A DNA stretch of 50,236 nt from Heyndrickxia ginsengihumi (lineage in GTDB: Bacteria > Bacillota > Bacilli > Bacillales > Bacillaceae_C), in assembly GCF_011008565.1 (NCBI RefSeq), contig NZ_JAAIWK010000026.1:1-50236 (forward strand), in the 5' to 3' direction. The notes under the pieces were generated by a model. It worked only from the letters and a program-made list of their open reading frames with translations, was not told the origin of the DNA and ran no database searches. Shown in pieces: positions 40,057 to 48,797 of the stretch. Made by a program: the position numbers and the translations under genes. Positions within the stretch are counted from its first letter, which is position 1. Every line of letters starts with the position of its first letter.

Positions 40057-41088
40057 ATGACAACAAAAATAGCGATAAACGGTTTTGGTCGTATTGGTCG
40101 AATGGTTTTTAGAAAAGCAATGGCAGACCATACTTTAAATATTGTTGCGGTGAATGCAAGTTATCCTGCTGAAACATTAGCACATTTAATAAAATATGAT
40201 ACGATCCATGGCGTTTTTAAAGGAGAAATACAAGTTGAACAAGATGCATTAATCATCGACGGAAAACGGGTACAATTAATAAGTGAACGTGATCCAGCAC
40301 AATTACCATGGAAGAAGCTAGGAATCGATATTGTCATTGAGGCGACAGGAAAGTTTAACAGTCGTGAGAAAGCAGCTCTTCATTTACAGGCCGGGGCCAA
40401 AAAGGTTATTTTAACAGCGCCAGGAAAAAATGAAGATGTGACAATTGTAATAGGAGTGAATGAAAACGTTTTAAATGTTGATCATCACCAAATTATTTCC
40501 AATGCGTCATGTACAACAAACTGCCTTGCCCCTGTAGCAAAAGTGTTAGATGAGCAGTTTGGCATTATAAACGGATTAATGACGACGGTACATTCATATA
40601 CAAATGATCAAAAAAATATTGATAATCCACATAAAGATTTACGACGTGCCCGTGCATGCGGTCAGTCCATTATTCCGACAACGACAGGTGCTGCAAAAGC
40701 ATTAGGTATCGTGTTGCCGAAACTACAAGGAAAATTACATGGTATGGCATTAAGGGTACCAACACCAAATGTTTCATTAGTGGATTTAGTAGTGGACTTA
40801 CGGAAAGAAGTGACGGCAGAGGAAGTCAATGAAGCATTTATGTCAGCTGCCAAAGGATCAATGCGCGGCATTTTAGATGTTACATTTGAACCGCTTGTAT
40901 CAACTGATTTTAATACGAATGAGCATTCTGCCATTATTGATGGCCTTTCGACGATGGTAATGGGGAAGAATAAAGTGAAAGTACTTGCTTGGTATGATAA
41001 CGAATGGGGTTATTCTTGCCGTGTTGTTGATTTAGTATCATTTGTAGCCAATAAAATTAATGATCACAATAAAATTACGATGGCATAA
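40057..41088 (+). CDS. gapB: Gluconeogenic glyceraldehyde-3-phosphate dehydrogenase GapB
   Basis: NADP-preferring GAPDH that works in the gluconeogenic direction. The 343-residue protein has INGFGRIGRM at the N terminus, catalytic Cys152 in SNASCTTNC and His179 in TTVHSYT. At the adenine-ribose site the sequence is AVNASYPAE (31-39), where NAD-specific GapA has an Asp after Val-Asn. The Ala-Ser there is the GapB mark and explains NADP use. The frame extends to 39970, but the ATG at 40057 has GGGGTTG upstream and fits the family. The CcpN-type boxes over the promoter agree with this assignment. Confidence 0.95.
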   Translation: MTTKIAINGFGRIGRMVFRKAMADHTLNIVAVNASYPAETLAHLIKYDTIHGVFKGEIQVEQDALIIDGKRVQLISERDPAQLPWKKLGIDIVIEATGKFNSREKAALHLQAGAKKVILTAPGKNEDVTIVIGVNENVLNVDHHQIISNASCTTNCLAPVAKVLDEQFGIINGLMTTVHSYTNDQKNIDNPHKDLRRARACGQSIIPTTTGAAKALGIVLPKLQGKLHGMALRVPTPNVSLVDLVVDLRKEVTAEEVNEAFMSAAKGSMRGILDVTFEPLVSTDFNTNEHSAIIDGLSTMVMGKNKVKVLAWYDNEWGYSCRVVDLVSFVANKINDHNKITMA

Positions 41089-41138
41089 TCAATTTTCTTA
41101 TAATTAAATATTGTTTTAATCATTCTTTATGTTTAATT

Positions 41139-41184
41139 TTAAAAAAGCCTTCACATGATAAGACGTATAGTGAAGGTTTTTTAT
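41139..41184 (+). terminator. Terminator after gapB
   Basis: AAAAAAGCCTTCAC and GTGAAGGTTTTTT flank a 15-base loop. Confidence 0.85.
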
Positions 41185-41353
41185 TGCCTTTTTTTACTAG
41201 CTCTGCACATTGCAATTGTAAGAGATCGTAATGTTGTTTACTTTTGAAAGACGTATCATAACTTATGCTTCCCTATTAAAGAAACAATATCTGTAAATAG
41301 AATTTTTCAAGTGCGAAAGCATAACGTTTTTAAATAAAAATAAAAAACTTGTA

Positions 41354-41382
41354 TTGCAAATAATAAACAAAATAAGTATACT
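41354..41382 (+). promoter_or_regulatory. Sigma-A promoter of speD
   Basis: TTGCAA at 41354-41359, 17 bases, TATACT at 41377-41382; predicted start of transcription near 41389. Confidence 0.72.
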
Positions 41383-41391
41383 ATGTTTCGT

Positions 41392-41556
41392 GAACTTCTA
41401 CGTTTTTTGTTTGTAACAAAAATGAAGTTGGCCGATAATGTCGCTACTTAAAGGGTTAGGACCTCTTTGGACTAACTTTCCCCCGTGGTAGCTACAAATA
41501 AGCAACATGCAAAACTGTTCTTAGATCGCTAAATTCATGTTAAAGGGGGAACGATC
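41392..41556 (+). promoter_or_regulatory. Structured speD leader RNA, riboswitch-like, class unknown
   Basis: The leader first forms a hairpin: AACTTC 41393-41398 with GAAGTT 41424-41429, and inside it TTTTTGTT with AACAAAAA. Next comes a two-stem unit. GCTAC 41443-41447 pairs with GTAGC 41488-41492, and within it AGGGTTAG 41452-41459 pairs with CTAACTTT 41472-41479. TTCCCCC at 41478-41484 is exactly complementary to the speD ribosome-binding site GGGGGAA at 41545-41551. This suggests control of translation by sequestering the site. I could not match it to a riboswitch class that I know. The gene makes decarboxylated S-adenosylmethionine, so SAM or a polyamine would be natural ligands (inference). 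Confidence 0.6.
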
Positions 41557-41940
41557 ATGGAAACAATGGGTCGTCATGTTATTGAAGAATTATGGGGCTG
41601 TAATATTGACAAGCTTAATGATATAGAATTTATTGAACAAATGTTTGTTGATGCAGCATTGAAATCTGGAGCTGAAATTCGCGAGGTAGCCTTTCATAAA
41701 TTTGCACCTCAAGGTGTAAGTGGGGTTGTAATTATTTCTGAGTCTCACTTAACGATACACAGTTTTCCAGAACATGGATATGCAAGTATTGACGTGTATA
41801 CTTGTGGTGATTTAGATCCAAAGATTGCGGCAAACTATATTGCTGAGAGATTGGATGCAACTTCTCGCGAGACAATTGAACTTCCCCGTGGTATGGGTCC
41901 CGTGCAAGTAAAGTCACCTGTGCGAGAAGAAGTAAAATAA
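41557..41940 (+). CDS. speD: S-adenosylmethionine decarboxylase proenzyme
   Basis: Pyruvoyl enzyme that decarboxylates S-adenosylmethionine to the aminopropyl donor for spermidine. The 127-residue length is the small prokaryotic class 1B form. Self-cleavage is expected between Glu62 and Ser63 in [19 protein letters not shown], where Ser63 becomes the pyruvoyl group. His68 and the later Cys (CGDLDP) are the other processing and catalytic residues. The start has AAAGGGGGAA upstream, which is complementary to part of the leader. speE is not in the window. Position after gapB is conserved in Bacillus. A terminator follows. Confidence 0.97.
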
Positions 41941-41948
41941 CGAATAAT

Positions 41949-41982
41949 CAACGAGATGATGCTATTCATCTCGTTTTTAATT
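41949..41982 (+). terminator. Terminator after speD
   Basis: AACGAGATGA and TTCATCTCGTT form a stem followed by TTTT. Confidence 0.83.
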
Positions 41983-42066
41983 TGGCAATAATAAGTAATG
42001 GTTGTGATTTTTAGTTCTTTTTTATATGATGTAGTTAATAATGTTCATTAAAACGGAGCTGGTATT

Positions 42067-42525
42067 ATGAAATGTCCGTCATGTCATCATAATAATACGC
42101 GTGTCATTGATTCACGGCCTGTAGATGAAGGACGTTCAATTAGAAGAAGACGTGAGTGTGAAGTTTGTTCATTTCGATTTACAACTTTTGAAAAGGTAGA
42201 AGAGACTCCACTAATTGTTGTTAAAAAAGAAGGAATTAGAGAAGAATTTGATAGAGAAAAAATTTTACGTGGTCTTATTAAGGCTTGTGAAAAACGTCCA
42301 GTTTCATTAGAAGTTCTTGAAAATATGTCAATGGATATTGAGAAAAATATTAGAAGTCAAGGCTACGCAGAGGTTAAATCAGATTTAATTGGTGAAATGG
42401 TGATGGACAGGCTCTCAAAAGTAGATGAAGTTTCGTATGTAAGATTCGCTTCTGTTTATCGCCAATTTAAAGATTTGAACGTGTTTTTAGATGAACTTAA
42501 AGAACTTTTGAACAAGAATTCATAA
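42067..42525 (+). CDS. nrdR: Transcriptional repressor NrdR
   Basis: An ATP/dATP-sensing repressor of ribonucleotide reductase genes. The 152-residue protein has an N-terminal zinc ribbon with Cys3, Cys6, Cys31 and Cys34, the basic SIRRRRECE stretch, and an ATP-cone domain (about 49-139) with [20 protein letters not shown] and the conserved [17 protein letters not shown] end. Its targets bind through NrdR boxes; none were looked for outside this window. A GGAG site lies upstream. The small hairpin after it is a terminator, although dnaB-dnaI follow closely, as in B. subtilis, where they form one operon. Confidence 0.97.
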
Positions 42526-46084: not shown

Positions 46085-46350
46085 CATAATGTAATTATAT
46101 AAAATGAACAAGTAATGATGAGGACAAGGGTATTCTATTTACGGTTTACAGAGAGGAAAGTCATGGCTGCAAGCTTTCTAACACGACTAGATTACTTACC
46201 ACCTCTGAACTTCAACTGCGAACTTTAGTAGTAGTTGGCGGATACGTTCCGTTATCAATCACTAAGTCATATCTTATGCAAGATATGAAAATTAGGGTGG
46301 AACCACGTGTATTCAACTCGTCCCTTTCTTTAGGGACGAGTTTTTTATTT
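46085..46350 (+). promoter_or_regulatory. T-box riboswitch upstream of thrS
   Basis: The T-box core AGGGTGGAACCACG is at 46294-46307, the sequence that pairs with the uncharged tRNA acceptor end. The stem I elements AGAGAG and GCTGCAAG lie at about 46151-46173. The terminator stem ACTCGTCCCT with AGGGACGAGT, followed by TTTTTT, is at 46316-46346. Thr codons (ACC) occur near 46199-46204, but I did not fold the specifier loop. When threonyl-tRNA is uncharged the antiterminator forms and thrS is expressed. Confidence 0.93.
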
Positions 46351-48643: not shown

Positions 48644-48797
48644 AGAAAAATGAATATATGTTTGTGGGAAAGAAGGAGCAACCCGCTTCTCACCTGTTGA
48701 CGCATATGTGTAGTTATCAGGTTTTGAAATTCATAGCATTCACGACTATTTATACGAATGTAGTGCGGGTTCTCATGACTCGCGCTTTTTTAGTTTT
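48644..48797 (+). promoter_or_regulatory. L20-type ribosomal protein leader with attenuator
   Basis: The leader before infC-rpmI-rplT ends in a terminator: GTGCGGGT with ACTCGCGC, then TTTTTT (48763-48791). AACCCGC at 48680-48686 is exactly complementary to GCGGGTT at 48765-48771, which makes a competing antiterminator pairing. In B. subtilis L20 binds such a leader and triggers termination, so the operon represses itself. Confidence 0.85.

Follow-up and report, generated by a model that had tools for sequence, protein, structure and literature searches.

A conserved leader of speD in the Bacilli is probably a new class of cis-regulatory RNA and a candidate polyamine riboswitch

Several classes of riboswitch (SAM-II, SAM-V, preQ1-II and preQ1-III) control translation by pairing the ribosome-binding site (RBS) into a pseudoknot that adjoins the ligand domain. 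RNAs that sense polyamines have long been claimed and rarely proved, and the proven class that has been reported is rare (PMC10853860). This spermidine riboswitch, described in the same paper, is a variant of SAM-I with 13 representatives, which has four stems and acts through transcription termination. It precedes polyamine synthesis genes, including speD, in Gram-positive genera, Oceanobacillus and Bacillus among them, and is expected to exert feedback control; to its discoverers the existence of further polyamine classes seems certain. The speD leader described here shares the position before speD, but it matched no SAM family, it would act at the RBS, and it accompanied 200 of the 208 speD-bearing genomes in a draw from the class, against 13 representatives.

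A second precedent is a 79-nt RNA of B. subtilis, located between speD and gapB, that was enriched with Hfq and entered as 'Unknown or speD leader region' (PMC3574147); the same enrichment was seen for known riboswitches. It belongs to the same gene and the same gapB-speD intergenic place as the element below, although the list, in the passages covered, gives no structure, conservation or mechanism. No earlier description of the speD leader was found in the open-access literature searched, most subscription papers and preprints lying outside that search; passages of PMC5519356 and PMC2743287 were among the texts covered. By term search, speD was absent from the main text of PMC11109978, PMC6429828, PMC8632094, PMC7266159 and PMC10043782, and in PMC4448311 it occurred only in a table of the Escherichia coli and Synechococcus section.

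The window, meaning the whole stretch of 50,236 nucleotides from Heyndrickxia ginsengihumi that was analysed, has the gene order mutM, one further gene, coaE, gapB, speD and nrdR around the leader; gapB, speD and nrdR were named by profile match, and mutM and coaE through comparison with an annotated plasmid region. All features given here for the window are on the + strand. The speD gene (41557–41940, with its ATG at 41557) encodes S-adenosylmethionine decarboxylase of the B. subtilis type (TIGR03330, 138.1 bits against a cut-off of 75.65). The initial annotation had proposed a promoter at 41354–41382, and this was borne out: a -35 box TTGCAA (41354–41359) and a -10 box TATACT (41377–41382) are separated by 17 nt, and a -35/-10 pattern was found in 78 of 80 related loci. 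A promoter scan of 41000–42300 was at chance level, with 7 sites where 6.1 were expected. In 79 of the 80 related loci the -10 box was followed by (C/T)GTGA, and in these the leader measured 109 to 187 nt (mean 140); the leader in the window comprises 41389–41556. Between gapB and the speD promoter, a terminator-like hairpin with a T run was seen by eye (41143–41183), being absent from the list produced by the scan; with it, the gapB and speD transcripts would be separate. The arrangement mutM-coaE-gapB-speD-nrdR, with the core before speD, was also observed on a plasmid of Anoxybacillus amylolyticus (NZ_CP015439.1, 59211–64272).

The structure predicted for the leader consists of a stem P1 enclosing a hairpin P2 and a C-rich sequence complementary to the speD Shine-Dalgarno (SD). 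P1 is formed by GCTAC (41443–41447) and GTAGC (41488–41492), and P2 by AGGGTTAG (41452–41459) and CTAACTTT (41472–41479), where they had been annotated from the outset. Junction J1/2 is TTAA (41448–41451), with one change among 67 distinct cores, and the apical loop of P2, GACCTCTTTGGA (41460–41471), here termed module M1, is nearly invariant except for three loop bases. The anti-SD CCCCC (41480–41484) lies in junction J2/1 and is separated from the 3' strand of P1 by a conserved GTG (41485–41487); its partner is the SD GGGGG (41545–41549). The GGG of the P2 5' strand can pair either with the CTT of P2 or with the anti-SD. The complementary heptamers on which attention had been drawn to the locus, TTCCCCC at 41478–41484 and GGGGGAA at 41545–41551, are both present, and TTCCCCC arose in 0.2% of 5000 dinucleotide shuffles of 41389–41544. 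Single-sequence folding energy was ordinary (z = -0.52 for 41389–41570 and z = -0.60 for 41430–41500). The window taken by itself would not convince; it is comparison with relatives that settles the reality of the element.

Conservation of homologous speD leaders had been set beforehand as a test, and the core proved to be kept across the class. It was present in all of the best 80 speD loci among genome contigs, in the window and in six further loci, giving 87 rows of which 67 were distinct; outside these rows, L006 and L011 carried it on the other strand. Among the distinct rows, 33 of the 42 columns of the core (CTTAAAGGGTTAGGACCTCTNNNGGACTAACTTTCCCCCGTGG) were invariant. Mean pairwise identity of the core across the best 80 loci was 0.971 (3160 pairs), compared with 0.791 for the speD reading frame of the same loci, 0.390 at the four-fold sites of that frame and, in a comparison without gaps, 0.32 over the 30 nt on either side of the core. 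A coding origin for this conservation was rejected in view of one-base insertions or deletions within the core of L144, L202, L217 and L228. Nearly the same core precedes SpeD types that are about 43% identical to SpeD of the window.

Evidence for base pairing was sought in two alignments. In A1, comprising 26 chosen cores, six of seven P1 pairs had changed on both sides; none of 500 shuffles equalled the observed value in any of five measures, and the paired fraction fell from 97% to less than 50% when the pairings were slid. A2 comprised 97 matches from 96 sources (94 distinct) and, being fitted to the model, is biased towards the structure; here all seven P1 pairs had changed on both sides, and P1 accounted for 182 of 188 such cells. 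Four of the five measures in A2 exceeded every shuffle and slide; for the fifth, the number of pairs with changes on both sides (nine), 12 of 500 shuffles and the +2 column slide did as well. Within P2, G-C had replaced U-A in 5 rows and G-U in 14, and in 21 rows G-U had replaced A-U. P2 is invariant among near relatives, and its covariation therefore rests on a few distant lineages. Covariation of the stems, asked for in the first reading, was seen for P1 in both alignments and for P2 only in those distant lineages. A small pair within the loop, P3, showed a single change from C-G to U-A (L040), and L212 accommodated about 50 additional nucleotides in the loop, as expected at the end of a hairpin. 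The leader accordingly contains a conserved, structured domain with support from covariation, as riboswitches in general do.

Since CCCCC and GGGGG are constant in near relatives, covariation across the putative pseudoknot cannot be asked there. More divergent lineages did show changes. Both sides had changed in L167, to CCCTC and GGTGG, and one group had an anti-SD of CCCTC that still pairs with GGGGG through G-U. The second speD copies of family f58 and several other families had an anti-SD of CTCCTC or CTCTCCTC, in combination with SD forms AGGAGGGGGG, AGGAGAGGGGG or AGGGGAGGGG. With nine hand-picked rows per group, the CTCCTC type had a mean pairing energy of -11.9 kcal/mol with the SDs of its own group and -8.2 kcal/mol with the ordinary SD, while the C5 type paired with both SD groups (-13.0 and -12.0 kcal/mol). 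A permutation test of all pairings gave p = 0.099 (47 distinct pairs, with one SD, that of L219, misread). GGGGG is not a rare RBS in the window, occurring before 4 of 42 open reading frames, speD included. For the proposed pairing of TTCCCCC with the RBS, complementarity is kept and co-changes occurred in divergent lineages; against it stands the overall permutation test.

The two alternative forms of P2 were compared by enforcing their pairs. In the window, P2 with its two G-U pairs and CCCCC free had an energy of -17.1 kcal/mol, against -17.5 kcal/mol when GGG was paired with CCC instead; a shorter piece gave the same balance. When both wobble U were computationally exchanged for C, the values became -22.6 against -17.5 kcal/mol, placing P2 ahead by 5.1 kcal/mol. 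Across 92 of the 94 distinct cores the median difference was -0.4 kcal/mol (extremes -7.0 and +3.1); 58 cores had a gap of no more than 1 kcal/mol and 81 of no more than 2 kcal/mol, and in 66 the form with the hidden anti-SD was favoured. Since most cores differ little, 57 of the 92 having one P2 3' strand, these are far from 92 independent observations. Lineages with ACTAACCTT were also near zero (-0.1 to 2.8 kcal/mol, 11 rows). In these calculations the balance gives a reason for keeping the wobble pairs, as the GGG strand would decide whether the anti-SD is hidden or free. Taken with the complementarity of anti-SD and SD (permutation p of 0.099), the near-isoenergetic alternative of P2 could provide a platform through which access to the RBS is controlled.

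The initial annotation had not recognised the consensus, and no known family was found in the leader. A search of Rfam at gathering scores returned two matches in the window, both away from the speD leader and both to known families: a T-box leader (46106–46328, 109.8 bits) and a ribosomal protein L20 leader (48664–48797, 64 bits). With E up to 10, the leader of the window gave five matches at chance level (E = 2.8 to 9, far below gathering scores), none of them to a SAM, preQ1 or polyamine family. With E up to 1, eight divergent loci gave 12 matches, the sole strong one being RNase P outside the leader, and none was to a SAM family. Membership of the SAM-II, SAM-V or preQ1 families of Rfam was rejected, no covariance model having matched, and so was identity with the SAM-I variant spermidine riboswitch, whose four-stem SAM-I architecture did not appear, there being no SAM family among the matches.

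Within the order, model R1 matched 322 of 397 genomes, once each. In the class draw it matched 145 of 299 genomes (E = 0.01), again once each. Leaders missed by R1 were named type II, and 22 type II rows served to build a second model, R2, which matched 186 of the 299 genomes (E = 0.001): 130 that R1 had also matched, out of its 145, and 56 others. SpeD was identified in 208 (E = 1e-8). Counting by genome rather than by gene, R1 or R2 matched 201 genomes, of which 200 had speD; the exception, G654, had its match at the end of a contig. The element was missing from eight speD-bearing genomes (G428, G567, four from family f56 and two from f71), and 90 of the 299 had neither speD nor the element. 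Outside the class there was no R1 match: in a draw from the phylum, searched with R1 only, there were matches in 4 of 249 genomes, all of the window's own class. Viral contigs gave 0 matches to exact patterns of either core type. Among the close relatives of B. subtilis, B. tequilensis and B. halotolerans (L095 and L099) carry the element.

The gene downstream was speD in every match for which it was checked, an association with one pathway. SpeD was found by tblastn in all 85 loci fetched through R1 (the window included) and in all of 20 further R2 loci, and it lay close downstream of 97 of 97 matches, 24 of these coming from the window or from loci that a SpeD search had first brought up. 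Second speD genes do not always have a leader, which was absent from those of families f60 and f80 (L250 to L253). In the f58 genomes L257–L263 there were two speD genes and two copies of the leader, one with the CTCCTC anti-SD. A tandem duplication of the leader and the start of speD was observed in L032 (1824–2450); the first speD runs into N bases, and the two copies are therefore probably an artefact of assembly.

Type II leaders share P1, the C-rich anti-SD and the SD, while the M1 loop is missing; in addition they have AGGAACCAGG/GACGYAGGTCCT as an outer module and, between it and the SD, CCTAGC...GCTAGG. The apical loop, GGACCTC...GGA, is M1 and the outer module is M2. The window type has M1 only, families f68 and f58 have M2 only, and some families carry both. 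M1 and M2 (the latter an outer internal loop) were seen to be kept by different lineages, with some retaining both (L236–L240, L243, L254, L255 and L196–L201).

The best explanation, to which a probability of about 0.6 is given, is that the leader is a new class of cis-regulatory RNA controlling translation of speD, and probably an OFF riboswitch that responds to a polyamine-pathway metabolite, with spermidine the first candidate. That a conserved cis-acting RNA acts on speD translation is very likely. It probably senses a small molecule without the aid of a protein. Spermidine itself is a tentative choice of ligand, drawn from the single regulated gene, a weak hold on ligand identity, and from the logic of end-product feedback. 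A shade more tentative is the full proposal of a second spermidine or polyamine riboswitch class, far more widespread than the first and structurally unrelated to it, found in species of the B. subtilis group and nearly every speD-bearing genome of the Bacilli, which would switch by strand exchange in P2 at two conserved G-U pairs, the ligand deciding whether CCCCC knots onto the RBS.

In the OFF state, P2 would contain its two G-U pairs and leave CCCCC free to form a pseudoknot with the GGGGG RBS across P1, the domain in which P1 encloses P2 and the anti-SD; in the ON state the GGG of P2 would pair with CCC, hiding the anti-SD and opening the RBS. The pseudoknot would be favoured by a polyamine-pathway metabolite, of which the end product spermidine is the likeliest. 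Such sequestration would resemble that of SAM-II, SAM-V, preQ1-II and preQ1-III, whereas the conserved sequences are different, the speD frame starts 33–92 nt past the core, and some lineages have an extra hairpin between the two. The type II leaders that lack the M1 loop, and the group with CCCTC, were counted against this explanation. The initial reading of a translational cis-regulatory RNA was nonetheless supported, the two outcomes named as grounds for abandoning it being a lack of conservation or covariation and a match to an Rfam family, neither of which occurred; that a ligand binds we infer. The leader is an explicit and conserved candidate for a polyamine-sensing RNA, and its presence in close relatives of B. 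subtilis means that feedback by spermidine at the level of RNA should be testable in a standard laboratory strain.

The same pseudoknot leader might instead be read by a protein, either a translational repressor or SpeD, with the invariant loop and junction as recognition site. The near-invariance of the 42-nt core would fit this also, as would the Hfq enrichment of the B. subtilis RNA, although that extended to known riboswitches (PMC3574147), but type II leaders do without the apical loop. SpeD is itself an unlikely binder given that types about 43% identical share almost the same core, which makes a small ligand likelier than SpeD, and that second speD genes lack the leader (L250–L253); autoregulation by SpeD was rejected as a first choice on the former ground. 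A protein reader is on the whole unlikely, and even then the element would regulate a key step in spermidine synthesis in a way so far undescribed. Rather more doubtful is that the fold serves as a riboswitch for SAM, decarboxylated SAM or methylthioadenosine in place of spermidine, perhaps with SAM opening the leader in a feed-forward manner. SpeD consumes SAM and yields decarboxylated SAM, and known SAM classes do sequester the RBS by pseudoknots; against this, SAM-sensing RNAs usually control genes for SAM and methionine synthesis, whereas the element stood only at speD wherever the gene was checked, and neither the window leader nor the eight divergent loci matched a SAM family of Rfam. 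For the SAM-I variant class, a test of methylthioadenosine led to its rejection (PMC10853860).

An element that senses nothing, for instance a thermometer, a target for a trans-acting small RNA or a determinant of RNA stability, is improbable: an RBS pseudoknot could merely set expression low, but near-invariant junctions, a nearly balanced P2 and association with one enzyme throughout the class exceed what a constitutive structure needs. Control by ribosome stalling on a short leader peptide is very improbable. By eye, a short frame in the window (ATGAAGTTGGCC...) ends at a TAA in the core, and, taking each reading frame in turn, 14, 24 and 13 of the 80 loci have a frame of at least 5 codons that enters the core, but an SD-like start was seen in 0 of 80, and the one-base indels of L144, L202, L217 and L228 would break any frame; a leader peptide attenuator was rejected, no translated and conserved short frame having been found. 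A transcription attenuator was also rejected, the scan having found no terminator in the leader and a five-T run being present in only 24 of 80 linkers.

Several other pairings in the leader were considered. The A/T-rich upstream hairpin of the initial annotation, TTTTTGTT/AACAAAAA, does lie at 41404–41422, outside the conserved element; inspection by eye did not show it in the near relative L031, and it looks lineage-specific and was dropped as part of the element. The 5' end of the leader, CGTGAACTTCT (41389–41399), may be the 5' side of an outer stem, P0, whose other strand would lie around 41531–41539. Compared with shuffles, the P0 duplex with the linker had a mean rank of 23 of 100 among 103 leaders with a recognisable 5' end; in 28 of these it was matched by no more than 5 of 100 shuffles, and in the window by 26 of 100. 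A possible linker hairpin in the P4 position, AACATG/CATGTT (41504–41541), was noted by eye and lacked statistical support in the window. Scored only where the predicted linker fold ends in it, P4 was strong next to the SD in some lineages without being general (mean z = -0.95, 141 distinct linkers); at most 3 of 60 shuffles were as good in 27% of these linkers, with none in the window. Lastly, GATCG (41524–41528) is complementary to CGATC (41552–41556), so that the two flank the SD and could make an extra stem around it; by eye, the same pair is found in L009 and in L005/L038, and in partial form in L031.
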